Below, one piece after another: positions 6,801 to 39,120 of a stretch of DNA of 42,603 nucleotides. Origin of the DNA: a virus. Each line of letters starts with the position of its first letter. Position 1 is the first letter of the stretch. The position numbers and the translations under genes are program-made. Location of the stretch: positions 1 to 42,603 of IMG/VR virus record IMGVR_UViG_3300037560_000179. One strand, written 5' to 3'. The notes under the pieces were generated by a model. The model was given only the letters and a program-made list of their open reading frames with translations, did not search any database and was not told where the DNA came from.

Positions 6801-7037
6801 TTATTTCTTTGCATTTATGTAATCCCCACAAGTCTTGACAATATCATCAATTGTTTGCCATGATGATGCATCATCATCATTGATTGAGATATCATATTCA
6901 CGCTCCATACACATAATGATTTCAACATGATCTAGGGAATCGAAACCTAAATCATCATACAAATTGCCGTCTTCATTTATAAGATTGAAGTCAATTGCCA
7001 GCTTATCCTCAATTATTGCTTTTATCCTGTTTTTCAT
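6801..7037 (-). CDS. Phage-encoded acyl carrier protein
   Basis: The 78-aa protein is a whole acyl carrier protein: acidic, four-helix pattern, with the 4'-phosphopantetheine attachment motif DLGFDSLD and Ser34 as the attachment residue; LDHVEIIMCMEREYDI is the following recognition helix and SSWQTIDDIV matches helix III. I use ATG at 7037, overlapping the preceding TGA; three codons upstream there is another ATG. Host ACP carries acyl chains for lipid and lipid A synthesis and contacts several other proteins. No fatty-acid enzyme is nearby, so it probably uses host phosphopantetheinyl transferase and partners. Its role in a phage early operon is unknown. Confidence 0.85.
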   Translation of the reverse strand: MKNRIKAIIEDKLAIDFNLINEDGNLYDDLGFDSLDHVEIIMCMEREYDISINDDDASSWQTIDDIVKTCGDYINAKK

Positions 7038-7177
7038 GATGTCCATTTATCGATAAGTACAAAAAATAGAGTCGCTAATAATCCAGCCAATGACACTACA
7101 AAATTATAAATTGATCCCTCAACTTGCTTTCTTGATTTGCCTTGGTATTCGCTTCGATTCCAGTTTTCTTTTTCCAT
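7034..7177 (-). CDS. Small membrane protein, 47 aa
   Basis: The start is ATG at 7177; an upstream GTG-initiated extension would translate the GC-rich hairpin region and is not preferred. A charged N-terminus (MEKENWNRSEYQGKSRKQ) is followed by one membrane span, about residues 22-43 (YNFVVSLAGLLATLFFVLI). The stop overlaps the ACP start (ATGA), so the two are translationally coupled. Function unknown; a partner of the ACP at the inner membrane is possible. Confidence 0.5.
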   Translation of the reverse strand: MEKENWNRSEYQGKSRKQVEGSIYNFVVSLAGLLATLFFVLIDKWTS

Positions 7178-12964: not shown

Positions 12965-13972
12965 ATGAAAATTAATAGATCAAAAATTATGCTAGATGCG
13001 TGGGATGTTTATAGAAAATATAATATATCTTTTTCAGAAGCATTAAAATGGTCTTGGGATTATTCAAAAGGTATAAATATGGATAAATTTAAAAAAGAAG
13101 AATTAGTAATAGCTTGGTGGTCTGGTGGCGTTACTTCTGCTGTAGCATGTAAATTGGCGCTTGACTTATACCCAAATGTTGAGGTCGTAATGATTGACAC
13201 CCATTATGAGCATTTAGATACATACAGATTTAAAGATGATTGTGAAAAATGGTATGGGCAGAAAATAAAGATTATATCTGCTATCCCAGATAAATACAGT
13301 TGTATTGATGATGTATGGGACAAATATACTTCCCTGAATGTTGCCCATGGAGCTATCTGTAGTACTGAATTAAAACGCGAAGTTAGAGAAGCTTATCAGG
13401 AAAGAATATCATTTAAGCATCAAGTGTTTGGTTTTGATATTGACGAGCCAAAAAGGGCTAAAATGCTGGCTAAAAATCACCGTGACGCTAAGGCAATATT
13501 TACACTTTTATTGCATGGTTTATCAAAGCTTGATTGCATCAATATAATTAAGCTTGAAGGAATTGAAATTCCCGAAGGTTATAAGCTTGGATTTCATAAC
13601 AATAATTGCCTTGGAAAGGATGAGGATGAGGGCGGGTGTGTTCAGGGAGGTATTGGATATTGGCAATTATTCAGGATATATAAACCAAAGGCATTCTATA
13701 ATAGAGCTATGAAGGAGCATGAATTAACTGACATAAAAGGTAAACCAGTCACTATGTTAAAGGATCAGTCAAAAGCCGCTAAGAAAAGTGGAAAATTTCA
13801 AGTGTTCTTACTCCCTCATCCTGATTACCCAGATTATAAGGATTTATCAATGATGGAAGGCAGGGAGCCGAAACCGCTTATGGAATGTAACGGATTTTGC
13901 GGTACAAATGATCTATTGCCAATTAATGAAACTGAAAAAGAAATTAATTTTCAAATAGATATTTTTAATTAA
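12965..13972 (+). CDS. PP-loop ATPase, PAPS reductase-like phage protein
   Basis: Residues 51-58, WWSGGVTS, are a PP-loop (SGGxTS) of the adenine nucleotide alpha hydrolase superfamily; EVVMIDTHYEH follows the first helix as in PAPS reductases, and AICSTELKRE near 133-142 aligns with their Cys-containing substrate region. The C-terminal half has clustered cysteines: FHNNNCLGKDEDEGGC then VQGGIGYW, and MECNGFCG near 312-319, possibly metal or Fe-S ligands. The N-terminal 40 residues form a separate helical domain. Relatives include sulfate-reduction, tRNA-thiolation and DndC-type DNA-sulfur enzymes; the substrate here is unknown. It converges on gp45, with a 4-bp overlap of the stops. Confidence 0.72.
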   Translation: MKINRSKIMLDAWDVYRKYNISFSEALKWSWDYSKGINMDKFKKEELVIAWWSGGVTSAVACKLALDLYPNVEVVMIDTHYEHLDTYRFKDDCEKWYGQKIKIISAIPDKYSCIDDVWDKYTSLNVAHGAICSTELKREVREAYQERISFKHQVFGFDIDEPKRAKMLAKNHRDAKAIFTLLLHGLSKLDCINIIKLEGIEIPEGYKLGFHNNNCLGKDEDEGGCVQGGIGYWQLFRIYKPKAFYNRAMKEHELTDIKGKPVTMLKDQSKAAKKSGKFQVFLLPHPDYPDYKDLSMMEGREPKPLMECNGFCGTNDLLPINETEKEINFQIDIFN

Positions 13973-15609: not shown

Positions 15610-16038
15610 TTATACATATAAACTCAGTTGGGAAACCTGTTCATATCCGGTTTCAATTCCCGGCACCCCATGCTTATTTACCTGTATAGTACATTGATTG
15701 TAATCATTTGTAAGTCTCATGTCATACAAAATATGATTGAACGCGCATGGGCTATTGGTAATTGTTGCATTATTAATAATACATTTTGAATCTTGCCGCC
15801 AAAGTCTTAAAGTATATAAACCCCCTCTTTTTATTTCCATTTTAAGGATCATTGCCGAGGTTAATACCGACTCATTTGCATTTGATTCAAGATTAAATAC
15901 TACAACAGACACCCCTTCAGGCATTTCATATTGCATTTCAATTCCAGGCGGTGAATGATCTTGATCAATGGCGCTTACTGAATTGCCAACGAACAGCAAA
16001 AGAGAAAAGCAAAGCATAAAGTTTAATAGGTTTTTCAT
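15610..16038 (-). CDS. Secreted protein inserted among tail genes (moron-like), 142 aa
   Basis: MKNLLNFMLCFSLLLFVGNS, then VSA before IDQDHSPPG, is a type I signal peptide with cleavage near residue 23; the Cys in the hydrophobic stretch is not a lipobox. The mature part is beta-rich with two Cys (SKCIINNATITNSPC) that could form a disulfide. It lies between gpN and gp44 but has a strong terminator downstream and 68 bp of leader, so it seems to be an independently expressed cargo gene rather than a tail part. Surface or periplasmic action such as blocking superinfection is a common role of such genes; not shown here. Confidence 0.72.
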   Translation of the reverse strand: MKNLLNFMLCFSLLLFVGNSVSAIDQDHSPPGIEMQYEMPEGVSVVVFNLESNANESVLTSAMILKMEIKRGGLYTLRLWRQDSKCIINNATITNSPCAFNHILYDMRLTNDYNQCTIQVNKHGVPGIETGYEQVSQLSLYV

Positions 16039-17941: not shown

Positions 17942-18579
17942 TGTAATGCTATGAAATTGAATCTTCCATCAAATTGGACATTATTTTCATCAGTCATTTT
18001 TATACGAAATGTTGTATTCGTTTTATTAAAAGCATCGGCAGATACTATAAGATCAGTTGTTTTTGAGGTGGCCATAACAATCAAATCTTGAGTATTTAAA
18101 GAGTGTGTTATCTCATATATTCCGGTTGAAATTTTAGCAGATGACCATGATCCTATATCAGTAATTCCGCCATCTTCAGATCCATCAGCTATTACACCCC
18201 CGCCTAATTTGACATTATTTGAAATTAACGCATCGGTTTGTGATGTTGAATAAACATCAAGATTTGATCTTGCGGTAGCTGCATTATCCAAATCACTCAA
18301 ATTATTAGCCTCATCCAAAAATCTATCATTTGCCTCTGTTTTTGTATAAGCCTCTGAATTGATTAATGATATCAAGGCTTGCAAAAGCTGGTAACCGTTC
18401 GCTTCATTATCTTGATTATCATTAGCCACTATAGACGCCAAATCCATAAGTTTTTGATGGAGCTGGATAATATCTTGATGAATATCTTCTTTTACTAAAG
18501 TGACTAATTCAACAATTTTACCATTGACATAATTAGGATCAGTATTATCTATTCCAGGTACATTGCTTAAATCTTTCAT
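17938..18579 (-). CDS. Tail fibre/collar-like protein, 213 aa
   Basis: NLSDLDNAATARSNLDVYS near residues 93-111 is the short repeat motif found in many tail fibres (NLSDL-X-N-X2-AR-X-NL). The N-terminal 70 residues are helical (VTLVKEDIHQDIIQLHQKL) and may bind the baseplate; the C-terminal 80 residues are a beta domain. It directly follows the gp48-type protein, the fibre's usual docking partner in Mu. It is short for a full fibre, so it may be an adaptor carrying other receptor-binding parts. Confidence 0.6.
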   Translation of the reverse strand: MKDLSNVPGIDNTDPNYVNGKIVELVTLVKEDIHQDIIQLHQKLMDLASIVANDNQDNEANGYQLLQALISLINSEAYTKTEANDRFLDEANNLSDLDNAATARSNLDVYSTSQTDALISNNVKLGGGVIADGSEDGGITDIGSWSSAKISTGIYEITHSLNTQDLIVMATSKTTDLIVSADAFNKTNTTFRIKMTDENNVQFDGRFNFIALQ

Positions 18580-20069
18580 TACACGTAATTTATAAGTAAT
18601 GTTCCAGCCGTTTGCGCTGGCTTCAATTTCAAAATTAATTCTCTAAATTCAGATTTCCTATTTGCGGGAACATCTGCGAAATCACCAAAATTCAGACCTC
18701 CTATTACAAATGTAGCCCTAATATTAACTTCTTCACCAAAATCAAATGCAGAATCTTTATCTTCTTCAATATGATTAGCTATTAAAGATCCTCCCTGAAT
18801 TCCTGATTGTCCATATGGTAATTGTCCATAAGTGAATGCTCCATAATATGCTGCCGTGGCCACTGATGTGCCAGCGAAAACATAAACATCAAATCCAGCG
18901 TCTTGCAATTGACCTTGGATATATTCAATGCTTTGTCTTGCCTTGATGTCTCCGGGGAATTTCATTTTTCGCAAAATCGCTGTTTTACGATCTTCAAGAT
19001 CAAGTGAAGGATTTATAATTAATCCTAACGCGCTTTCCCAATTTGCAGCATCATCAGTATCAAAAATGTCATTATCTGGAAGAATTCTAAATAATAAATT
19101 CCTTGCATCTTCATACGCCCTGGCTTCTGAATAAGACAATCCTTCATGCAATTTATCAAATACGCCTCCTAACTTTTGCCACCATGCCCGGCCCTCCGGA
19201 TATAGTGTTTTGGTTAGTTTTCTGATTATTCCAGAAAAGATAGGCACATCCTCATCAACTATAAATTCATAAAGTTTTATCTTGTGATTTCCAGAATCGA
19301 CAACATAAAGATTTGTATTTGCCTGGTCATAAAAAGTAAATGCTGGGAAAAAGAATTCATCCTGCCCGGCTCCCTGACTTCCAAAGGTAGAAATCAATTT
19401 TAAATCCTGATCTAAAAAAACAAGTTGATTTCCTTGCTGATCGGAAGTAACCAGGATCCCTTCAGCCTCGGTTATACTTGTAGGGTATGCGTAATTAAAT
19501 GAACTATCACCAACCTGGGTAATTCCCTGAAAAATCTTTATTTCCTTATTGGCTGAATCCGAAACCGCTAAAAGGGAATTTATAATATCTGAGCTTTCGG
19601 GAAAATTGAAGCCTGTCAATTCTGAAATAAACGTACCGGTAAGTGAATGAACTTTTATACGCCCGTTTACCTTATCAGCTATGTAAAGATTTCCATTTAA
19701 AAACTTTATACCTACAGGATATTCAAATTCATCATTACCATTTCCGCGACTGCCGAACTCTAAAAGGAAAGTGCCATCTATTTGATGTTTTTTAATCCTG
19801 TGATTTGATCCATCGACTACATAAAGATCGGTTCCATCTGTTGTGATTCCATCAGGAAAGAAGAAATTATCATTTCCTAATCCTTGCGTTCCGAATTTTC
19901 GTAAAAAATTACCGGCCAAGTCAAATACTTGTATTCGATTATTTTGCCGGTCACATATAAAAACTTCTGAATCAAGTATTACTATCCCTTTCGGGTATCT
20001 GAATTCACCATCACCCGAACCGGATGAACCCCACTGGCCTTGAAATTCTATTTTGGAAACTACGCTCAT
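18579..20069 (-). CDS. NHL beta-propeller fused to Mu gp48-like (DUF2313) protein
   Basis: Residues 5-270 contain five or six NHL repeats, each with a turn such as GSGDGEFRYPKGI, GLGNDNFFFPDGI or GNGNDEFEYPVGI followed by LYVVDGSNHRIKKH-like strands. From about residue 280 the sequence changes to the DUF2313/YmfQ fold: KTLYPEGRAWWQKLGGVF, RNLLFRILPDNDIFDTDDAA and NWESALGLI. In Mu, gp48 links the baseplate to tail fibres and is about 190 aa; here the propeller roughly doubles it. It lies in the exact Mu order after gp46 and gp47. The propeller probably displays or holds a ligand-binding surface at the baseplate. Confidence 0.8.
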   Translation of the reverse strand: MSVVSKIEFQGQWGSSGSGDGEFRYPKGIVILDSEVFICDRQNNRIQVFDLAGNFLRKFGTQGLGNDNFFFPDGITTDGTDLYVVDGSNHRIKKHQIDGTFLLEFGSRGNGNDEFEYPVGIKFLNGNLYIADKVNGRIKVHSLTGTFISELTGFNFPESSDIINSLLAVSDSANKEIKIFQGITQVGDSSFNYAYPTSITEAEGILVTSDQQGNQLVFLDQDLKLISTFGSQGAGQDEFFFPAFTFYDQANTNLYVVDSGNHKIKLYEFIVDEDVPIFSGIIRKLTKTLYPEGRAWWQKLGGVFDKLHEGLSYSEARAYEDARNLLFRILPDNDIFDTDDAANWESALGLIINPSLDLEDRKTAILRKMKFPGDIKARQSIEYIQGQLQDAGFDVYVFAGTSVATAAYYGAFTYGQLPYGQSGIQGGSLIANHIEEDKDSAFDFGEEVNIRATFVIGGLNFGDFADVPANRKSEFRELILKLKPAQTAGTLLINYV

Positions 20070-28545: not shown

Positions 28546-28986
28546 TTATTGATTATCTATTCCTGTTAATTCTTCTCCTGCCATCAACTCAAGGCCAATG
28601 TCATTAAGCCAATCTCTGAGCCTTCTTTCGTCAACTACTGTATCCAAAGTTTCCGCTCCGGCAAAATTTATTTTTGATTCTGCTATACGTCCTTTGTTAA
28701 CCAGGTTAACCGCATCAGTATCACCATCTAAAATGGTTTGACCTACTATAGCTATGCCAACTGGAATTTGACTTCCATCAACTGCGGCTGCTACTAAAGG
28801 AATTATCAAGCCTGTAGCGTGGATTCTTCCCATTACTTCGCCTTGAAGTAAAACAACGTCTGCACCGGAAGCTGCAACACTAGGCGCTGGCTGTGCGAAT
28901 GAATTGAAACCAAGCAAAAACTTGCTTAAATCAAAATTTGAAATGAGCTGATTTCTTGTCTGTAAAGTGTTAGTTATCTCGCTCAT
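28546..28986 (-). CDS. Head decoration protein (lambda gpD-like)
   Basis: The 146-aa product is mostly beta and glycine/alanine rich with VVLLQGEVMGRIHATGLIIP near 44-63 and SQIPVGIAIVGQTILDGDTD near 72-91, matching gpD (PF02924). It would form trimers that stabilise the expanded capsid. It overlaps the protease stop as ATGA and is followed after 4 bp by the capsid gene. Confidence 0.85.
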   Translation of the reverse strand: MSEITNTLQTRNQLISNFDLSKFLLGFNSFAQPAPSVAASGADVVLLQGEVMGRIHATGLIIPLVAAAVDGSQIPVGIAIVGQTILDGDTDAVNLVNKGRIAESKINFAGAETLDTVVDERRLRDWLNDIGLELMAGEELTGIDNQ

Positions 28987-30206
28987 GATTCTTTGGTTTT
29001 AACGCCCGCACTTTTCATTATGATCTCTTCTGCTTTTGCTAACTCTTTTTGATTATCAGTTAACTCTTTGTCCTCTTTTCCTTTTGCGGAAGAATCAATA
29101 TCTTCAATTGTCTCTTCTTTTGTGCCTTTAAGAGTAGCTACCTGCATTCCTTTTACCTGCATTGCTGTCATTACGTCAGCGTCAATTTCCAGACCTTCAG
29201 TAATCCCTTTTTTAACAGCTTCAGGATCGATTGATGAATAATTCATCCATGCTTTGCACCTAGTGCGCTCCTGGTTTACACCAATATCTAAAATAGATTG
29301 GTGAAGTTCAGGGTATTTGCTTTTTAGCTCCTGTAAATTCATTGATTTATTAGTTACGTTATTAGAAAGTTCTTTTACTTTTTCGACTGCTGTTGAAAAT
29401 GGGCCAATTGAATCAATCAAAGTTCCTACGACTTCATTAGCATGAAATATCTCACCTGTTAATTCAATTCCTCTGACTTTTGGCCGGTTTGATTTGATAT
29501 CTTTTTTGAATTGATCATTGTGGGGATTAAGGATCTTTTCTTTGACTGGCTTGAAATTGAAATTATTTATGGCCTCTTCAAATTCTTTATTCTTATTGAA
29601 AGAATCATCAGCATATATTCTTACGCTTCTTATTCCATCTTGATCTTCAGACTGTTTGGGAGTTCCCGTGAATTCAATCATTGTGCCGATTGAACCAATT
29701 AAATCATCTTCCCTTGATGCAACTATATGATTTGTATACGATCCGATATACATGGCAGCGCTTGCCATAATTCCATCCACATAAGTTACAATAGGCTTAC
29801 TTAGGTTTTGAATTGCATCTGCCATTTCAGGAATTGCATTTGCCGAACCTCCACCGCTTTCGATTTCAAGTATATGACCTATGACATTTTCCTTCTGATC
29901 ATTCTGAGTTAATCTTTGGGCCATTCGGCGGGTCCCTGAATGAGAATAACCGCCGTGTTTGGTGATTGGGCCGTCTATCCTGGTAACTGAAATTACCTGC
30001 TCTCTTTCTTCCGGTTCTGCTGAAATATCAGCATTTAAGACCTCATTACTTTGTGCGTCTATAAGGTAGGTTGAATTTAACTTTTTTCCTTCAGATACTT
30101 TGCCTCCATTTCTGAAATAGTCAAGCATAGGGAAATACTTTTGGAAGCTATAAGCATCCATAAACCAAGGTTCCCCGTATATCTGTCTGGCTAAAGTAAA
30201 ATCCAT
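28983..30206 (-). CDS. Head maturation protease (S49/SppA family, lambda gpC-like)
   Basis: VISVTRIDGPITKHGG near 71-86, LEIESGGGSANAIPEMADAI at 113-132 and TYVDGIMASAAMYIGS at 141-156 are S49 blocks; Ser149 in MASAAMY is the probable nucleophile, and DDLIGSIGTM follows. The C-terminal 110 residues (MNLQELKSKYPELHQSIL onward) are helical and charged, similar to scaffold domains. In lambda the scaffold Nu3 is made from an internal start in gpC; an ATG at 29342 could do the same here. It precedes gpD and gpE. Confidence 0.85.
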   Translation of the reverse strand: MDFTLARQIYGEPWFMDAYSFQKYFPMLDYFRNGGKVSEGKKLNSTYLIDAQSNEVLNADISAEPEEREQVISVTRIDGPITKHGGYSHSGTRRMAQRLTQNDQKENVIGHILEIESGGGSANAIPEMADAIQNLSKPIVTYVDGIMASAAMYIGSYTNHIVASREDDLIGSIGTMIEFTGTPKQSEDQDGIRSVRIYADDSFNKNKEFEEAINNFNFKPVKEKILNPHNDQFKKDIKSNRPKVRGIELTGEIFHANEVVGTLIDSIGPFSTAVEKVKELSNNVTNKSMNLQELKSKYPELHQSILDIGVNQERTRCKAWMNYSSIDPEAVKKGITEGLEIDADVMTAMQVKGMQVATLKGTKEETIEDIDSSAKGKEDKELTDNQKELAKAEEIIMKSAGVKTKES

Positions 30207-30208
30207 TA

Positions 30209-30517
30209 TTATTTTTTATTGACCAATGCTAAATACGCTACTTTAACTTCTTTCAACTCTTTTGAAAATCTCTTTACTCCAAGTGATAGCTCTTCGATTT
30301 CATTTTTACTAAGCTTGTTATCCTTCAAAGCTTTTTCAAACAATTCGGATATACTAACCGCCTCATCAGCTACGTCAACAACTTCTTTGATCAATTTTAC
30401 TGCTTTGGTAAATTTGCTTTTGAATTTCAGGAGAAAACCACCTCCAAATATAGCGAGTGCTGATAATATGACATTTCCAATTGAACTTGCATCGAGGTTT
30501 TGAAGGAATTCAAACAT
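30209..30517 (-). CDS. Small membrane protein (holin-type?), 102 aa
   Basis: An N-terminal span, SIGNVILSALAIFGGGFLLK near 12-31, precedes a charged helix (FTKAVKLIKEVVDVADEAVS onward). Such one-span proteins with cytoplasmic coiled coils occur in phage lysis cassettes as holins or their regulators. It is next to the DUF5675 gene cluster and before the protease. The function is inferred from position. Confidence 0.5.
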   Translation of the reverse strand: MFEFLQNLDASSIGNVILSALAIFGGGFLLKFKSKFTKAVKLIKEVVDVADEAVSISELFEKALKDNKLSKNEIEELSLGVKRFSKELKEVKVAYLALVNKK

Positions 30518-30558: not shown

Positions 30559-30759
30559 CTATTTTTTTTTCTTTCGCAAAAATTGAAACCTTTTTTTCTT
30601 TGGTTCATTATTTTGAACGACATCTAAAATATTATTTCTACCTTTTACTTTTGGTCGATTGATTTCGTAATCATCACCTAAAGCAGGTTTTACCAAATAC
30701 CACATTGTGATCATTCCGCAAATGAAACCAAAGAAAATAAGTGCTATTTCATACCACAT
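30559..30759 (-). CDS. Small membrane protein with basic tail, 66 aa
   Basis: One span (residues 3-22, YEIALIFFGFICGMITMWYL) is followed by a polar linker and a strongly basic end (KKKRFQFLRKKKK). The ATG lies inside the stop region of the DUF5675 gene. It could be a spanin- or holin-like part, or an anchor. No family recognised. Confidence 0.5.
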   Translation of the reverse strand: MWYEIALIFFGFICGMITMWYLVKPALGDDYEINRPKVKGRNNILDVVQNNEPKKKRFQFLRKKKK

Positions 30760-31228
30760 TCATTTTTTCTTTTAATGTTTTTTCGTCAATGATTTCGATC
30801 TTAGCGCCATTAGTTCTTATTTCAGGAATTACTTTTTTGTAAATCTTTTCGTAGGCTAATGAACTATGTGCAACATATCTAGCTCCATCTTTTTCGGTAT
30901 GAATAGCCATGCCTGTCAGTAAACATCCGTCCGTATGTCTGCTGTGTACGCCGGGATGAATGTATATATATTTGAATTCAGGAACATCTTTCAACATAAT
31001 GTGCCATTTGAACCAGGGAAATCTTTTTCTATATTTTTCAGCGCTTGGTGACAATACTTCCCGTTCAACTAAATCATATATTCCTGCCTGAATTCTAGTG
31101 ACTCCCTTTACTTTTACATCCCTGTGAATGTCTTCTAAAATGAAGCCTGAAAATAAATTATCAATATAAAGTAGCCCAATTGTACTATCTTTTTTGTCGT
31201 CTGAAAATCTTAGCAATGTCAGTTTCAT
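30749..31228 (-). CDS. DUF5675 family protein, likely lysis enzyme
   Basis: The protein follows DUF5675: GVTRIQAGIYDLVEREVLSP near 42-61, HIMLKDVPEFKYIYIHPG near 76-93, and HSRHTDGCLLTGMA near 95-108. The order His-Gly... Gly-Cys resembles the active-site arrangement of L,D-transpeptidases (His, then S/G-x-G-C), so a peptidoglycan enzyme is plausible. It lies in a group of small membrane proteins typical of a lysis cassette. No classical lysozyme or amidase is present elsewhere in the window, making this the main endolysin candidate. Confidence 0.7.
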   Translation of the reverse strand: MKLTLLRFSDDKKDSTIGLLYIDNLFSGFILEDIHRDVKVKGVTRIQAGIYDLVEREVLSPSAEKYRKRFPWFKWHIMLKDVPEFKYIYIHPGVHSRHTDGCLLTGMAIHTEKDGARYVAHSSLAYEKIYKKVIPEIRTNGAKIEIIDEKTLKEKMNVV

Positions 31229-31473
31229 TCTTTTTCAAGTATTTTCATTAAAATATCTTTTTGTTCTGAAACAACGCCCAGAACTTTATCTACTTTTTCT
31301 CCAAGTGATCTGATTTCTAATTGCATTGTTTCAATTTGCTTATCTCTCGATTTATCTTCTGTATTATTCACTGCCTGATATTGTTCAATTAAAAAAATTT
31401 TTCTTACTACCCAGCTAAAAAATGTGAGCAATATGGTTGCAATAACTTTTGTTTCTAAAAGAATCTTATCCAT
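31225..31473 (-). CDS. Holin/XhlA-like protein, 82 aa
   Basis: A membrane span near residues 8-28 (TKVIATILLTFFSWVVRKIF) is followed by a coiled coil (IETMQLEIRSLGEKVDKVLG). This is the topology of XhlA-type phage proteins that help lysis, though in XhlA the coil comes first. It starts in the stop of the upstream secreted protein (TAATG) and overlaps DUF5675, so it is first in the lysis group. Confidence 0.55.
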   Translation of the reverse strand: MDKILLETKVIATILLTFFSWVVRKIFLIEQYQAVNNTEDKSRDKQIETMQLEIRSLGEKVDKVLGVVSEQKDILMKILEKE

Positions 31474-32984
31474 TAATTTTCAATTTCAACTCCTATATGC
31501 AAATTCATTGACTGTATAGTATTACTGCCTCCGGTTGTTATTCTAAAGAGCATGCCCTCCGGTCCATTTCCATCTATAAATTGATTTATATCAGTAATTT
31601 TCCAAGCATACCAATTGCCATTAATTACATCATCGTTTGGGCCATATGTATTTGCCCAGCTTTCAATAATTCCATCCCCTGGAGTAAATCCGGTAGCAGC
31701 ATATGTCCAACCGGTATTTTTGTGATGTAATATTTCAATATTAAATGATGCGTCACTGAAACTTACATTCAATCCCATATCAATTTCTGTAATATAGAAA
31801 TCTTTATTGCCAACATCTTCATATTTAGCGAGTCCGTAGTTAAAATCAAAACTATAGGTTGTCGGACTGCCGGACATTACTATTAATTGAAAATCAACAG
31901 CTCCCACAAATTTTTTACCTTCAAAATATTCATTTAATGCAACTGTTGTTATGTCTGTAATAATCGTATCTTCAAATGCTGAAATTACCCCGCCCGAATC
32001 ATTATAAGAAGCTCCGCTAACACTAAGCCCAATTACACCAGTGTCGACAGTGCCCGCACCTCCAGCAATTACGGACGCATGCTTTCCGTGAGGATCGTTT
32101 GCAGTTCCGTATATAACTGTTGAGGATGCTTGTGTTAAATTTGCATCTGTAGAAGGAAAATCATAATTACCACCTAGATAATACGTTCCAGATCCTATCC
32201 CCTGAGACGTAAATGTATAATCTTTCGTGACAAATGTTCTTTGTAATTCATACGATAAATTCACTAAAATTATTCCTTCTGACGCGTGAGATTTAAGGCA
32301 AATTCCTATTATAATTATTTTTGCAGGCGCAACTGGCATTGTGCTTGTTAAATCTCCATTTGTTGCTAAATAAACTATTTCGCCTACTAATAACCCTGAT
32401 GTATTTAAACTTCTAACAAATCCTCTCACATTCATAAATCCCCAGTCTCCATCTGGAATGTCTACTGTGGCCAATCCGGATAGTGCTATTGCGGTGGAAT
32501 CATCATTAGAGGAAAGTCCGATAGTTGGAATTGAATCTCCATTTGATCCGGTGAAATGAATTGCTTTTCCATTTTCAATTAATGCACCGGTATTATTATA
32601 AGCAAGCATTAAACTTTCCAGGGCTCCTTGCCAAACTACATCTCCTTTTCCTGTTTCAAATTCAAATGTCCCTTCTGATTCATTGAATCTGATAACCCTA
32701 CCGCCTATGGTTATGCTATCACCCGAAAATTTGTTTTGAATATTTATCCAATCAGAATTATTAAGACCTCCGACAAGTTGATAATTTGTAGAATCTTCCA
32801 AAACGTAAACGGTCATTCCCTCCCACCTCTGAACGTTTGGAAATGCATCCCGGGCAATTGTTGTTGCCGCCTCAAATCGTGTATCGATCGGAAGTGGTGC
32901 GCTTAGTTCAAAATTGGTTTGAATGTCAACCTGGGCACTGGCAAATGCGCTTATGAGAAATAGAAATAATAATATCTTTTTCAT
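31473..32984 (-). CDS. Secreted fibre-like protein, 503 aa
   Basis: MKKILLFLFLISAFASA, with cleavage before Gln18 (ASA-Q), is a clear signal peptide. The mature N-terminus TIARDAFPNVQRWEGMTVYV, then NYQLVGGLNNSDWINI, is a module common in tail fibres and also resembles that in the product of 35988-37553. The rest is beta-rich: ALESLMLAYNNTGALIENGK, LLVGEIVYLATNGDLTS, and a C-terminal domain from about 260. A fibre protein with a Sec signal is unusual for a phage; it may be exported to the cell surface or the signal may have another use. The function is not known. Confidence 0.7.
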   Translation of the reverse strand: MKKILLFLFLISAFASAQVDIQTNFELSAPLPIDTRFEAATTIARDAFPNVQRWEGMTVYVLEDSTNYQLVGGLNNSDWINIQNKFSGDSITIGGRVIRFNESEGTFEFETGKGDVVWQGALESLMLAYNNTGALIENGKAIHFTGSNGDSIPTIGLSSNDDSTAIALSGLATVDIPDGDWGFMNVRGFVRSLNTSGLLVGEIVYLATNGDLTSTMPVAPAKIIIIGICLKSHASEGIILVNLSYELQRTFVTKDYTFTSQGIGSGTYYLGGNYDFPSTDANLTQASSTVIYGTANDPHGKHASVIAGGAGTVDTGVIGLSVSGASYNDSGGVISAFEDTIITDITTVALNEYFEGKKFVGAVDFQLIVMSGSPTTYSFDFNYGLAKYEDVGNKDFYITEIDMGLNVSFSDASFNIEILHHKNTGWTYAATGFTPGDGIIESWANTYGPNDDVINGNWYAWKITDINQFIDGNGPEGMLFRITTGGSNTIQSMNLHIGVEIEN

Positions 32985-32985
32985 T

Positions 32986-33510
32986 TTATGGAATTTCTTG
33001 ATAGTAAATATCTGTTGAATCGTGTAAAACTTTAATCAATCTGGCTTTGTCGAATTTTCGCCCCGGATAATAATCTTTCAAAAATATCAAATCATCTTTT
33101 TGAATATCAGAGGTAATTCCTTGAAGATATCGTATGCTTTGGGTTGAATCGATGCTATATTTTAATAGCTGCATATCTTCCCATTTTCTATGAATTATAC
33201 TATCGTTTTCGCTGGTATAAGTTGACCAGGAAAGACCAGATAATATATCATTATTCAATTGCGCAGTTGGAATTTCTAGCCATATCTCAAAATCTGTGAT
33301 CTGGCAAAAATCCAATAAGGAAATTATTTCATTAATGTTTGAAAATCTGGAATCTGTAACAATTTCATTATTTTTCAAAACATAATTTTTGCCTGCAAAA
33401 AGAGTGAGTTCATATATTTGAGATCCGGTTAGGGATCCTTTATCGTATGTTATTCTTTGCGCATTGGCAAAAGAACTGATCAAAAGGAATATTAAAATTA
33501 TATTTTTCAT
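32986..33510 (-). CDS. Secreted protein, 174 aa
   Basis: MKNIILIFLLISSFANA, cleavage before Gln18, is a type I signal peptide. The mature part is mixed alpha/beta with FEIWLEIPTAQLNNDI and KWEDMQLLKYSIDSTQ. No family is recognised. It is the smallest of four consecutive secreted proteins, and its neighbours start within 2 bp of its ends, so it is translated with them. Confidence 0.65.
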   Translation of the reverse strand: MKNIILIFLLISSFANAQRITYDKGSLTGSQIYELTLFAGKNYVLKNNEIVTDSRFSNINEIISLLDFCQITDFEIWLEIPTAQLNNDILSGLSWSTYTSENDSIIHRKWEDMQLLKYSIDSTQSIRYLQGITSDIQKDDLIFLKDYYPGRKFDKARLIKVLHDSTDIYYQEIP

Positions 33511-33511
33511 A

Positions 33512-35998
33512 TTATTCTGTTATAAAGAAATCTTGTCTTGGAGTTGTATCCAAATCAACTGTACCGTCATTGCCCTGTCCTGATAAATCAACACAGGTTA
33601 AATCTCCATTGTCTGCACATTCAGTTTTGAAATAATTAGTGCCGTCCATATCCCATTCTATCTGACTAATTATTATACCACCTACATCGGTGACTATTCC
33701 TTTAAGTTTACCCGTTGCAAATCCATTTCCGGTAGATACATTGCTAGTCAAAGTTCCAAAGCTTGATTCAGGAGTTACAAATTGCCCGTCGATTTTCAAA
33801 GATATGCCCGTATCGTCTGAACTTCCATCGTAGAATACTTCAATTGTATATCTAATGCCTAGCTCAAAAACTGGGCTTGATAGTATAAATATGTCCTGAC
33901 CAACTCCCACCCCCTCTAATGAGACGAGTAATTTTTTTGCGTTTGGGCCTGAGTTATTTAAAACAATCCTAAGCCCAATCAAATCACCGGCACTATCTAT
34001 ATAAGAATTCCATATCACCCCCTCAAACGCATCATCGCCTGTTCGCTGGATAGATGCCTTTAAATAAAATGTTGATGTCCTTTCAAAATCAGGCACATCT
34101 GGAATAGTTACTTTTTCAATGCCTGAAAAATTATATATCTCATCCGTCCTTTGAATATAATTCCTAATTCTATTTCTTAAATTACTACTGCCTGAAATTG
34201 GTTCAGGAAAATTAGAATTTACAATCAAATCCCTCACTATTCCGGTTTCACTATTCCGGTAAAATCTTGTTAAATCTGCTGTTATCGAATCAAAGGTTAT
34301 GTTTTCATCAATATGAACGTTGGCAGATTCTAACGCAGGCGCATCGGCAAAATTACGATCATAAACATCTCCTGAATTGTTTATTACTTTTGGGCTACCC
34401 GGGATTAAGATATTATAAAAATCTGTCTCAATTGGGGCTTTTACGGTGTCACTTGAATTACTCCAATATCCATTTAATTGATTATAAGGATAAGCTGAAG
34501 TATCATTTCCAAAAGGATTAATTGCACTTCCATTTAGATCAATTAATAAATGATCTAAATTTACAGTATTAAAAATGGTATCTCCGGTGAATTCTGAAAA
34601 CTGATATCTATCATTATTCGATAGAATTAATTCTCGTAAATTTCCTGAAGTTAATAAAATATCATTTCCGGATTTCGAGGGTGTGGATGTTCCTTGAGAT
34701 GATGTGATTGTTATTCCTGAAAGGTCAAAATGTGTGAGTTTTATTATTCCATCAGGCACTAATAAAATTGGTTCTATTGTTGTTTCGTATCTTACTGGGC
34801 CGTGGTAGACTTTTGGAACTATGTTTCCAGAAATATCTATATTACCTTTTCCGTTTCCGGCAATAGGGATATGTGTATATTTTCCATCGTCCGTAGGTGA
34901 CCAAATCGCATCGCTATTTATAGGTGCAAATTCAGCTATATTTTGAACAGATGTTTCGTTGCCATTAATATAATTAAGATTAATTAGTTCTTTCAGTAAA
35001 TCATCATCAATAAGCTGAATTGTATAGTAATATCCTTCTGCTCTAAGCAATGAACCGGTATTTACGCTATATGCTCCAACTCTAGTGTTTGAGTTACCTA
35101 ATTGATAGAAAATACTCAAAATAACCGTCTTTGTTTCTACCTGACCGTTTAAAGTTACTTTTAATTGAGTCCCATTTTTTTCTATTTCTAAATCAATAAA
35201 TTTATTTAATTCAATAGAAATTGTACCATAAGTATATCCGATTGAAGTTGATGCATTTTGAGTAAGTATTATTCGCAATTCGTTACCTATAGTTAAATAA
35301 AATGATACGCCACTATTTAAAGATGGTTCTTGTCGTTGATTAATCGTTCCAATAATAACATTATTTGCCGTTAATATACCTTTATATTTGTATGTAAAAT
35401 TTTGAAGTTCAAATTCGCTATGATATCCAAGATTTAAGTACCGCGCCGCATCAAAATATCCTGCTTTTGAAAACCCAATTTCATTTTGAATACTAGGTAA
35501 GGAATGATTGGTGGCGTGAAATGAAATCTCCGATGATCCTCCTAAGTTTAATGATGCGTGGTTTCCGTTAAAAATATTTTGATAGCTAATAAATCCTAAC
35601 TGTTCATCACAATTATAAACATCCGTTCCGTTTATAATTATTTTTGATATTGAATCAATACCAGGTGTAAGAACTTGGCCTACCAAAAAAGAACTCAGGT
35701 CATTTCCATCTTGGTCGATTATAGTTGTAATTGATTGTGGATATGTAATAGTTTCAATTCCTGTGAAATTGTAAATTCTACCCTTTTGAATGGGTCTGTG
35801 CTTCTTTCCTTGCCCATTATCAGGCGCAAACCAAACGTTTTGAATATTTATACCGGATGTGTCTTGGTAAATTTCACGACCTCGTTTATCAAAAATATGT
35901 TGAATTAGGCTATCTTTAGGCGCATTACTCCGCTGTAAAAATTGCCCTTCCGCAAAAGAAGAAATAAATAAAAATAGAATTAATAATTTATTCCACAT
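33512..35998 (-). CDS. Large secreted protein with two lectin-like domains, 828 aa
   Basis: MWNKLLILFLFISSFAEG, cleavage before Gln19, is a signal peptide. Residues about 170-330 (YNLGYHSEFELQNFTYKYK-like start, then IDLEIEKNGTQLKVTLNGQV) and about 620-790 (FYLKASIQRTGDDAFEGVIW, YTIEVFYDGSSDDTGISLKI) fit concanavalin/LamG-type beta sandwiches. The middle (about 390-480) has short leucine-rich-like beta segments (NLRELILSNNDRYQFSEF). CVDLSGQGNDGTVDL near the end is a typical LamG terminus. It could bind a glycan on the cell surface or in the envelope. Confidence 0.65.
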   Translation of the reverse strand: MWNKLLILFLFISSFAEGQFLQRSNAPKDSLIQHIFDKRGREIYQDTSGINIQNVWFAPDNGQGKKHRPIQKGRIYNFTGIETITYPQSITTIIDQDGNDLSSFLVGQVLTPGIDSISKIIINGTDVYNCDEQLGFISYQNIFNGNHASLNLGGSSEISFHATNHSLPSIQNEIGFSKAGYFDAARYLNLGYHSEFELQNFTYKYKGILTANNVIIGTINQRQEPSLNSGVSFYLTIGNELRIILTQNASTSIGYTYGTISIELNKFIDLEIEKNGTQLKVTLNGQVETKTVILSIFYQLGNSNTRVGAYSVNTGSLLRAEGYYYTIQLIDDDLLKELINLNYINGNETSVQNIAEFAPINSDAIWSPTDDGKYTHIPIAGNGKGNIDISGNIVPKVYHGPVRYETTIEPILLVPDGIIKLTHFDLSGITITSSQGTSTPSKSGNDILLTSGNLRELILSNNDRYQFSEFTGDTIFNTVNLDHLLIDLNGSAINPFGNDTSAYPYNQLNGYWSNSSDTVKAPIETDFYNILIPGSPKVINNSGDVYDRNFADAPALESANVHIDENITFDSITADLTRFYRNSETGIVRDLIVNSNFPEPISGSSNLRNRIRNYIQRTDEIYNFSGIEKVTIPDVPDFERTSTFYLKASIQRTGDDAFEGVIWNSYIDSAGDLIGLRIVLNNSGPNAKKLLVSLEGVGVGQDIFILSSPVFELGIRYTIEVFYDGSSDDTGISLKIDGQFVTPESSFGTLTSNVSTGNGFATGKLKGIVTDVGGIIISQIEWDMDGTNYFKTECADNGDLTCVDLSGQGNDGTVDLDTTPRQDFFITE

Positions 35999-37553
35999 AT
36001 CCGGTGCCAGTTATAATCATGTTTGAAAATTGAATCGCTGTACTTTTTAAGCCCACAGCTGGAACAACTACCCTTTTTTGTGTTGTTGTAATATCAATCA
36101 AATTGAAAAATGGATCAATATCATCATCAAAATAAGCTCCTGTTGTCGCGCTCATATCAATTCCATTGTCACTTTCTTTAAGAATTACCCATGAGTAAGT
36201 TCGATTTTGAATTACACCCGTAATACTTGCGGGTGTCCAATCTACAGTTAATGCCACATCTAAAGTAATTTCAATGACATTTACATCACTATTAACAAAA
36301 AATGCATCAGAAGCATTCCCATCCAACACGGTAAATGACTGTTTTATTTCTGCGACCGCAGGAGGATTTATCTGAGTTGTAGTATCTGTTGAAAATAAAA
36401 ATGTGTACGCTTGGTCGCTTGATATAGTCGTAAGATTTGCAAGCTTATAAATTGCATAACTCTCTGTCCAGTTCTCATCTAAAGTCAATGAAGTGACATC
36501 ATTTGTTGTCCGGTCAAATGCTCCGGTGACATTCAGTCCGCTATTATCTAAAATCTTTACTAAACTTCCGTAGCTATTCGGGTATGTATAGTAAAGAAAT
36601 ATATCGCTGGCAGGTGTAAATGTTTTGGTTTTATTTCCTTTTTGCTCGACTGTTTTATTGAGTTGATTATAAACATCCGAACCGCCTCCGCTTAAATCGT
36701 TGACAGAAGTTCCGAACAGAAAAGGATAGACAGAATTTAAGGTTTTGATATCAGATGTGATTGTATCCGAAATTGAACCAACTTGCAAAGCATGGTATTG
36801 TTCTATAAGTGTTGAATCTGCTGATTGTTGAGGGAAAAATGTAATATTCGTTGAATAGCTTTGTCCACTTCCAAATGAATGGACCGTTAAGGTATCTGGG
36901 AAAATCCTCTGAACTATACCTCCACTTAAACTTGGCTCATCATTTACAATTGTTTGGCCAGTGGTTAAAATAGAATTATTTGTCCCTATCTCAAAAAGGG
37001 AATCAGCAACGTTTATATCAATTGTCGCTGAGACAAAACCAAAAAAAGCACTATCTAAAAATCCTCCGGTTGTTGAACTTCCGAAAATATCACCTAAATC
37101 TGGAATTGTTTTTATGGCTCGCGTTCCATCAAACTCGCCCCCAATGTTTAAGGTGTCAAACTTTTTTCCCTGTAAATAAAGTGCATCAATGGCAAATAAA
37201 GTATCGGCTGTCATTGTGACATAAATAGAATCAAGAGCCCCTATATCTGTCCAATTGGTATCGTTAATCCAATCAACATTTAAAGTTCCCGACCCTTCAT
37301 ATCTTTTTGTCACCCACATGGAATTCTCAAACCATGATACAGACATGCCTACTACTCTGAAATCTTGTTCAATAGCATCGCGCGCCGTCTTGTCAGCGAC
37401 CTGGTGCATTCCTCCTTGTACATCGTCAGAAAAAACCGCCGACTTTGTAGGATCAAAGTTTCTAATCCTCTCCGGTACTAGGAATTGGCTCTTCGATAAC
37501 TGTGCTGTCAGCATCAAGAGCGTCAACAAAAGTATCTGCTTTCTTAAATTCAT
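35988..37553 (-). CDS. Secreted fibre-like protein overlapping the portal gene, 521 aa
   Basis: MNLRKQILLLTLLMLTAQLS, cleavage before Gln23 (SKS-Q), is a signal peptide encoded inside the last 92 bp of the portal gene in another frame. The mature N-terminus VADKTARDAIEQDFRVVGMS, then MWVTKRYEGSGTLNVDWIND, repeats the module of the protein at 31473-32984. Later parts are beta-rich with ITITGTGYVE-like ends and Thr/Asp-rich segments. Its stop overlaps the next start by 11 bp. Fibre or surface adhesin role is inferred. Confidence 0.68.
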   Translation of the reverse strand: MNLRKQILLLTLLMLTAQLSKSQFLVPERIRNFDPTKSAVFSDDVQGGMHQVADKTARDAIEQDFRVVGMSVSWFENSMWVTKRYEGSGTLNVDWINDTNWTDIGALDSIYVTMTADTLFAIDALYLQGKKFDTLNIGGEFDGTRAIKTIPDLGDIFGSSTTGGFLDSAFFGFVSATIDINVADSLFEIGTNNSILTTGQTIVNDEPSLSGGIVQRIFPDTLTVHSFGSGQSYSTNITFFPQQSADSTLIEQYHALQVGSISDTITSDIKTLNSVYPFLFGTSVNDLSGGGSDVYNQLNKTVEQKGNKTKTFTPASDIFLYYTYPNSYGSLVKILDNSGLNVTGAFDRTTNDVTSLTLDENWTESYAIYKLANLTTISSDQAYTFLFSTDTTTQINPPAVAEIKQSFTVLDGNASDAFFVNSDVNVIEITLDVALTVDWTPASITGVIQNRTYSWVILKESDNGIDMSATTGAYFDDDIDPFFNLIDITTTQKRVVVPAVGLKSTAIQFSNMIITGTGYVE

Positions 37554-39120
37554 TTTCTGCTTTTATTAAATTTTTATCAAAATCACCTGTGTTCAAATTT
37601 TCGCTTTCCTGCTCGCCTGTGGTCAATGGAATATTACCAAACGCTTTACCTAATTTAATTCGGCTCGCATTCGCTTCTTTAACCGGATCAATATGCGGCA
37701 CAGTTGCGCCAATAAACCTGGCCAATCTATAAGCATTCAATAATTTGGTATCCTTTGCCACTAAAGCTTGAAGATATCCCGGAGCTTGAATTGTTCCATT
37801 TAAAACATTGATGTCTAACCAAAAATTATAGAATGGTTGATAATAATCATGCTGCATGATGTTTGCTCTATCCACCATCATTTTATATTCCCAACTTTTC
37901 AAAGCTGCACGGCTCCCAGAATAAGCGCCACCGAATTTATCAAAAGCAACCTCTGGAGGAATTCCGATAGTGGCATAAACAATTTCAGCATTCACACCGA
38001 AGAAATCTCCAAAATGTAAATCAGAAGATCCTTTATGCATCATCAGCTTAGATCCGATCGGCATATTATAAACGCTCTTTTCAGTCGTCTGAGCTACCTT
38101 TGTGGCTACCTGTTCACAATCATTAAAAGTCTCCTTTGCCGTTCCTTTGTCCTTTCCAAATGATTGGGCCATTTGTTTTTGCATAGGATTTTCACCATCT
38201 GAAAACTGATTATGTTCGATTGATAATGGAATCTTTGCATTTTCTTCCGCACCTCCAAGGGTTGCGGATTTGTATCTATCCATCTTGGCGACTGTTTCCA
38301 AAACAGCACTAAACAAACTCAATCCACGAACTGAGTTCAGCTTATATTTTGAGCCGTACATTAACCACGCCTGAAGCTTTTTAGTTTTTGCGCCTCTGGC
38401 TAAAACACGGGTAAATTTCAAATCATCACCAAAAACAAAAAATGCTATATGCTCGCCTCTTTTATTTATCTCAACTCCCCTAACGACTGTATTACCTCTT
38501 TTTTGAACTGCCTTCAATTCATCACTCAAGATTGGAGTATAAATTCTATTTCCATCAATGATTTGAATAGTTTCATTTTTCCCATCAAATCTTGCAATAC
38601 AAAGAACATCGCCGGCCATGATAGCATTTTTCAAAGCCGCCGCCGCCTGGAGATGTAAGCTGGTCATTCTTGAATAATCGCTTTCACGGCTTTTTGCATG
38701 AAGCCTGAAATATGATTCTGCGGAATCGGTGAATTCTTTTAATTGATCTTTTCCAAATGATGGGAATGCTTTTTTTATTATAAGTTCTTCGGGTGTGGAT
38801 TGTAGTTTTAATCCTTGCCCGACAATCCATAAACAATACTTACGAATTGCATTTTGAACTATATCACTTTCAAGATATGCTTGCCAGGTACGGGCGCGAA
38901 GTCTGTAATAATCATCATCATAATTCAATGGCGTGCCCATTTCATAAGGAGTTTTTTCGCCATCAAACGCGACCATATTTCTGCCTGACCAAAATGTATT
39001 TGATTTGCTTCCGGCTAAATGATTGTCAATTGGCCTTTCAGATTCTTCATAAACCGGGCCTGAATCAACATGAAGTTGATTGGGGAAAAAATCATTCCAT
39101 ATTCCAGAAAATATATTCAT
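37462..39120 (-). CDS. Portal protein (lambda gpB family)
   Basis: The 552-aa protein has family blocks: NYDDDYYRLRARTWQAYLES near 65-84, AAAALKNAIMAGDVLCIARF near 157-176, NAEIVYATIGIPPEVAFDKF near 387-406, GGAYSGSRAALKSWEYKM following. It forms the dodecameric ring through which DNA enters and leaves. It overlaps gpW (ATGA). The C-terminal 80 residues are acidic and overlap the next gene by 92 bp. Confidence 0.9.
   Translation of the reverse strand: MNIFSGIWNDFFPNQLHVDSGPVYEESERPIDNHLAGSKSNTFWSGRNMVAFDGEKTPYEMGTPLNYDDDYYRLRARTWQAYLESDIVQNAIRKYCLWIVGQGLKLQSTPEELIIKKAFPSFGKDQLKEFTDSAESYFRLHAKSRESDYSRMTSLHLQAAAALKNAIMAGDVLCIARFDGKNETIQIIDGNRIYTPILSDELKAVQKRGNTVVRGVEINKRGEHIAFFVFGDDLKFTRVLARGAKTKKLQAWLMYGSKYKLNSVRGLSLFSAVLETVAKMDRYKSATLGGAEENAKIPLSIEHNQFSDGENPMQKQMAQSFGKDKGTAKETFNDCEQVATKVAQTTEKSVYNMPIGSKLMMHKGSSDLHFGDFFGVNAEIVYATIGIPPEVAFDKFGGAYSGSRAALKSWEYKMMVDRANIMQHDYYQPFYNFWLDINVLNGTIQAPGYLQALVAKDTKLLNAYRLARFIGATVPHIDPVKEANASRIKLGKAFGNIPLTTGEQESENLNTGDFDKNLIKAENEFKKADTFVDALDADSTVIEEPIPSTGED

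Follow-up and report, generated by a model that had tools for sequence, protein, structure and literature searches.

Coat proteins that reach the virion through the Sec translocon are familiar from inoviruses, but these are filamentous and assembled in the inner membrane, unlike the contractile-tailed phage considered here, which has a cytoplasmic head-tail pathway. We describe four consecutive genes, g1 to g4, in IMG/VR virus record IMGVR_UViG_3300037560_000179 (positions 1 to 42,603; hereafter the window, meaning the whole 42.6-kb stretch analysed), in which terminase, portal, S49 head protease, and major capsid genes are identifiable, as are those for sheath, tube, tape measure, and baseplate. 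Each of the four proteins has a predicted signal peptide, and we think it probable that together they form a fibre-like adhesin or receptor-binding block that is made as Sec precursors and joins the virions at lysis.

The closest described arrangements come from Cellulophaga phages. Phages phi19:1 (gp101-104), phi10:1 (gp091-095), and phi18:3 (gp085-087) resemble the window in having consecutive large fibre-like genes, each signal-bearing and nearly all with Gln at +1, and 11 of these 12 block proteins are annotated from virion tandem mass spectrometry (MS/MS); their blocks differ from g1-g4 in sitting in the tail or lysis region, in including pectate lyases, and in having no detectable homology to them. 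Phage phiSM provides a parallel in gene place, since its gp07-gp09 interval is flanked by a related portal (34% identity) on one side and the head protease on the other and adjoins lysis genes; no homology of gp08 or gp09 to g1-g4 is detectable, however, and gp09, a GDSL hydrolase, bears the annotation pectate lyase. Phage phi18:1 holds the N-terminal module of g4 in two MS/MS virion proteins, gp60 and gp61 (phrog_24134 / phrog_25379), which unlike g4 lack a signal peptide and start at the mature g4 start. Lastly, phages of Porphyromonas gingivalis, also a Bacteroidota host, have genes with signal peptidase I (SPase I) sites exposing Gln, which the available text of PMC10367356, there making no link to the virion, reads as host-envelope modification.

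Across phiSM, phi18:3, phi19:1, and phi10:1, 12 signal-bearing proteins are annotated from virion MS/MS, 11 of them with Gln: i) phiSM gp08, encoded in the portal-protease interval beside the related portal, with the signal peptide MKNYLSILFLLSSFLVLS directly before Q and the note 'experimental MS/MS proteomics'; ii) phi18:3 gp085, gp086, and gp087; iii) phi19:1 gp101-104, four genes in a row as in the window; and iv) phi10:1 gp091-094. The other head and tail proteins with an MS annotation that were tested in these four phages all failed to score as signal-bearing. The MS/MS evidence consists of GenBank notes, which are silent on signal removal. The initial annotation of the window had assumed that virion proteins lack Sec signals; these 12 tagged proteins show that the premise fails in Bacteroidota phages, and they suggest that some tailed phages export part of their own particle via host secretion.

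The four genes and their signal peptides

g1 to g4 form one tightly packed unit on the minus strand, bounded upstream by the portal gene (37462..39120, minus strand; Pfam PF05136, phrog_21) and downstream by the gene for an S49-type head maturation protease (28983..30206, minus strand; phrog_53, E 7e-37; PF01343). g1 (35988..37553, 521 amino acid residues, aa) encodes a fibre-like protein with a signal peptide, a conserved N-terminal anchor, and a variable C-terminus, and has homologues in eight IMG/VR loci; g2 (33512..35998, 828 aa) encodes a large signal-peptide-bearing protein with no confirmed domain; g3 (32986..33510, 174 aa) a signal-peptide-bearing protein with a weak match to phrog_12431 (E 0.0035); and g4 (31473..32984, 503 aa) a tail-fibre-like protein with a signal peptide. 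Adjacent genes overlap by 11 nucleotides (nt) at g1/g2, lie 1 nt apart at g2/g3 and g3/g4, and overlap by 1 nt between g4 and the next gene. These open reading frames (ORFs) bear out the initial description of four consecutive packed genes of these lengths between portal and S49 protease.

Signal peptides were scored by a home-made rule (not SignalP) with a working cut-off of 3.9. All four proteins exceed it (g1 4.37, g2 5.02, g3 5.89, g4 5.62), and all four have a positively charged n-region, a hydrophobic h-region, and an AXA-type site directly followed by Gln. This last feature is the Bacteroidetes Q-rule, Gln at +1 averaging 71% of SPase I substrates across 334 Bacteroidetes species (PMC5837995). 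With a hyphen marking the predicted cleavage, the signal peptides end at AEG-Q19 in g2 (35945..35998), ANA-Q18 in g3 (33460..33510), and ASA-Q18 in g4 (32934..32984), all on the minus strand like that of g1 (37488..37553); for g1 the rule prefers LTA-Q18, and the family alignment favours SKS-Q23, thereby backing the site first proposed. The same rule accepts 2 of 465 core head and tail virion proteins of relatives, 20 of 521 antisense ORFs, and 0.4-3% of N-termini after shuffling, and 0 of the 465 core proteins combine a passing score with site-plus-Gln; the earlier claim that each of the four has a signal peptide with predicted cleavage before Gln thus holds up. The only other gene of the window above 3.9, flanked on both sides by a baseplate hub gene, encodes a 142-aa protein (15610-16038, minus strand); its signal peptide (VSA-I) is good but lacks the Gln, and no family match was found.

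Hydrophobic N-termini of this kind could instead be structural helices of virion proteins rather than working Sec signals, either retained or cut off as the virion assembles, for instance by the phage protease. Such N-termini do occur in capsids: the major capsid proteins of two relatives, L080 (3729-4907) and L083 (6949-8160), begin with signal-peptide-like sequences, and P. gingivalis phage capsid proteins are likewise reported with signal peptides, proposed in the available text of PMC10367356 to be clipped by the prohead protease. We nevertheless regard this explanation as improbable because i) an AXA-type site followed by Gln is found in 36 of 37 listed proteins (some near-identical), as against 0 of 465 core virion proteins; ii) in Bacteroidetes this arrangement is the signature of SPase I acting with glutaminyl cyclase (PMC5837995); and iii) the hydrophobic segment is wholly missing from the homologous fibre N-termini, and is therefore not needed for virion attachment.

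Other routes and reasons for export were considered and rejected. No type IX C-terminal sorting domain was found in g1-g4 (no NCBIfam match at E <= 0.05, no Pfam type IX domain at E <= 0.1), nor was a lipobox, the residue after the site being Gln rather than Cys and the proteins being 174-828 aa long as against small exclusion lipoproteins; type IX secretion and a lipoprotein route were rejected accordingly. A need for disulphides is unlikely in general, because mature g1, g2, g3, and g4 hold only 0, 3, 1, and 1 Cys. The sequence D[ST][ALVIMT], which we take from the Bacteroidota literature to be a periplasmic O-glycosylation motif, occurs 24 times in mature g1-g4 where shuffling predicts about 10.7, a roughly twofold enrichment; it is enriched in the g1 family too, whereas core proteins (0.96x) and the MS-annotated Cellulophaga proteins show no enrichment. 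On this mixed evidence, O-glycosylation of g1-g4 is possible.

Conservation, modularity, and the place of the proteins

Relatives were surveyed through the portal, because pattern searches of IMG/VR gave no relatives of g2, g3, or g4, and the module alignment A2 contained no stretch conserved enough for searching; the portal-profile search covered 80 viral loci and nine cellular-genome loci. A g1 homologue lies directly after the portal in eight of the viral loci (L002, L011, L013, L015, L016, L018, L021, and L022), making nine phages with that of the window. Judged by sequence, all nine g1-type proteins have a signal peptide and then Gln, including L011 and L018, whose signal peptides fall below the cut-off of the rule, and the mature protein mostly starts Q..PE. 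The homologues are about 20-25% identical to g1 over their length, with homology confined to residues ~3-107 and C-terminal parts that are unrelated, and this combination of conserved N-terminal anchor and variable C-terminus is a tail-fibre-like pattern. The mature anchor module of g1 (37233..37487, minus strand; family alignments A4 and A6) reads Q..PE...KTARdAI....R..GM.V.W...W. An N-terminal module common to two of the four proteins had been noticed from the outset, and it is indeed present in g1 and g4, if weak (39% over 51 aa, E 0.005).

The opening ~30 codons of g1, signal peptide included, overlap the 3′ end of the portal gene by 92 nt in another frame (37462-37553), and the corresponding overlap in the eight related loci is 59-101 nt. 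Since g1-type genes start inside the portal 3′ end, their signal peptides are coded in an overlapping frame. The recurrence of this out-of-frame overlap in eight loci could serve to measure selection on the signal.

The overlap also bears on the suggestion that these are ordinary tail fibres whose signal peptides were acquired through recombination with secreted proteins of the host and matter little to function. The signal peptides of g2, g3, and g4 do resemble common Flavobacteriia leaders and one another (g3/g4 61% over 18 aa), and the trait is patchy among phages; yet signal and Gln are kept in nine divergent g1-type proteins despite the overlapping reading frame, and blocks of three to five neighbours are all tagged in phi18:3, phi19:1, and phi10:1, so that we consider mere recombination very unlikely.

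The fibre character of the block is clearest in g4. Its mature N-terminal module (32733..32933, minus strand) is homologous to the N-termini of phi18:1 gp60 and gp61 (phrog_25379, E 1.9e-11; tblastn, E 6e-8; phmmer, 3e-12), with 43% identity to gp61 over 63 aa (blastp), and matches a tail-protein PHROG and a virion-structural PHROG (phrog_25379, phrog_24134); gp60 and gp61 are GenBank virion proteins by 'experimental MS/MS proteomics', and they begin, without a signal peptide, where mature g4 begins. The middle domain of g4 (32250..32702, minus strand; tblastn E down to 4e-14, phmmer) occurs in tail-fibre-annotated proteins of unrelated phages of Proteobacteria; the CRP-6 and 1M3-16 tail fibres, the two checked, have no signals. 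The same domain stands behind the g1 anchor in L011, L015, L016, and L022, indicating that parts are exchanged between genes, as happens in fibres, and C-terminal matches to baseplate, tail-spike, and virion PHROGs are found in the L021 homologue. Within the block, sequence homology to fibre or virion proteins was found for g4, and none for g2 and g3. Nor could any Pfam, PHROG, or phage relative be found for g2, and a PDB sequence search with g2 and g4 gave nothing significant. Lectin/LamG domains were considered for g2, the protein for which lectin-like domains had been suggested, and were dropped when Pfam searches with the full-length protein and domain by domain gave no support.

A fixed four-gene system is not supported: in relatives only g1 recurs at the place after the portal, no relatives of g2 and g3 were found, and 62 of 68 surveyed portal-S49 intervals lack any such gene. 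Signal-bearing proteins of at least 150 aa occur in five of the 68 intervals by a conservative tally, or six with L011; more distant relatives, including L091 and L092 (two Allomuricauda genomes) and L093, encode such proteins near the portal, from one to three each.

Sec signals could also serve proteins that never enter the virion, the four being retained in the envelope or at the infected cell's surface and there masking receptors (superinfection exclusion), altering adhesion, or trimming the capsule. The classical Sec signals with Gln on g1-g4 would suit such a role, as would five Q-rule genes of P. gingivalis phages that their authors read as host-envelope modifiers (PMC10367356, available text), and phiSM gp09, which is signal-bearing yet outside the MS-based list. 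We think this role unlikely, given that g4 and its relatives are composed of tail-fibre modules, that related phages have 12 proteins with similar tags and a virion annotation, and that g1-g4 yielded neither a type IX domain nor a lipobox or other surface signal. Of the two possibilities first raised, then, virion fibres made by an unusual route are favoured by the modularity, the virion homologue of g4, and the tagged MS/MS proteins, and an exported surface complex blocking superinfection gained no positive evidence.

The virion-fibre reading must itself be set against several points: i) g1-g4 of the present phage are known here from sequence alone; ii) the demonstrable virion homologue of g4, in phi18:1, carries no signal peptide; iii) AlphaFold models of g1 and g4, built from shallow alignments, have a mean predicted local distance difference test (pLDDT) score of 34 and 31, too low for judging a trimeric beta-rich fold; iv) by profile comparison, the g1/g4 N-terminal modules are not similar to those of the MS-detected signal-bearing proteins (hhalign probability 0.2); v) the MS/MS hits may be co-purified periplasmic protein or uncleaved precursor; and vi) the trait is patchy, the phi18:1 fibres and the tested proteins of phi38:1, both Cellulophaga phages, being without signals. 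That comparison gave no support to a common ancestor of the g1/g4 module with the N-termini of phiSM gp08, phi19:1 gp101, and phi10:1 gp091. With no demonstrable homology, what ties the MS-detected proteins to g1-g4 is gene place (phiSM), the architecture of the blocks, and the type of signal. Periplasmic contamination is made less likely as a source of the hits by neighbouring fibre and lyase genes being reported together in several phages; and the signal-less phi18:1 fibres and phi38:1-region proteins indicate that the route is not obligatory in this host genus.

Neighbouring genes

Judged by the portal, the isolated phages closest to this one are those of Flavobacterium columnare (37%) and the phiSM-type phages of Cellulophaga (34%). 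Between g4 and the protease gene, all on the minus strand, lie genes for an 82-aa small protein that has a hydrophobic stretch at its N-terminus (31225..31473) and a DUF5675 protein (30749..31228; PF18925, E 3e-22), by its position a probable lysis gene, followed by a 102-aa small membrane-like protein (30209..30517); the two small proteins, both without a confident family, occupy apparently holin-like positions. An ORF of ~66 aa (30559-30759, minus strand), 3′ of the DUF5675 gene, has by eye a single N-terminal membrane segment and is possibly a spanin-like lysis part.

Elsewhere in the window, a baseplate wedge-type protein (18579-20069, minus strand; wedge part at residues 280-496) has an N-terminal extension of NHL beta-propeller-like repeats (phrog_22523 match at 20-146), possibly an extra host-binding part. 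The largest identified plus-strand gene (12965-13972) encodes a 3′-phosphoadenosine 5′-phosphosulphate (PAPS) reductase-like protein (phrog_424), and FCV-1 has a gene with the same annotation near its portal. An 81-aa ORF (6801-7046, minus strand) looks by eye like an acyl carrier protein, with a GFDSLD motif; an annotated acyl carrier protein is also found in Cellulophaga phage Nekkels_1.

A candidate export route for phage fibres

We propose that g1-g4 are made as Sec precursors from which SPase I would remove the tag, exposing Gln, and that host glutaminyl cyclase could turn this residue into pyroglutamate, a conversion assigned in the available text of PMC10653852 to an inner-membrane-associated cyclase. 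The four proteins would fold and oligomerise outside the cytoplasm, heads and tails being assembled in the cytoplasm as usual; the neighbouring lysis genes would then open the cell, so that exported proteins could meet virions and dock via their conserved N-terminal modules, leaving the variable C-terminal parts free to bind the host surface. Export and cleavage are predicted from the signal peptides, presence in the virion would follow by analogy with the MS-annotated proteins of other phages, and assembly would probably take place at or after lysis. Possible gains are that sticky or enzymatic fibres are kept away from the cytoplasm; and that the proteins acquire pyroglutamate stability or glycosylation, or act on the host surface before release.

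More generally, the chances seem to us about even that tailed phages of Bacteroidota use a two-compartment assembly, in which heads and tails are cytoplasmic and Sec-exported fibres and polysaccharide lyases mature in the periplasm, through pyroglutamate and perhaps O-glycosylation, to be joined to them only at lysis, possibly after acting on the surface of their own host. Tail fibres and Q-rule signals are each known already as kinds of component; a literature search, with most subscription journals outside its reach, found no report tying Q-rule signal peptides to MS-verified virion proteins of tailed phages.

The usual view is that tailed-phage virions assemble wholly in the cytoplasm, and fibre proteins with working Sec signals would therefore mean a second assembly compartment. 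If true, this would account for phage genes described as 'secreted' and at present interpreted as modifiers of the host; it would warn against ruling out virion proteins by their signal peptide when receptor-binding proteins are annotated; and it would be relevant to producing Bacteroidota phages outside their hosts.

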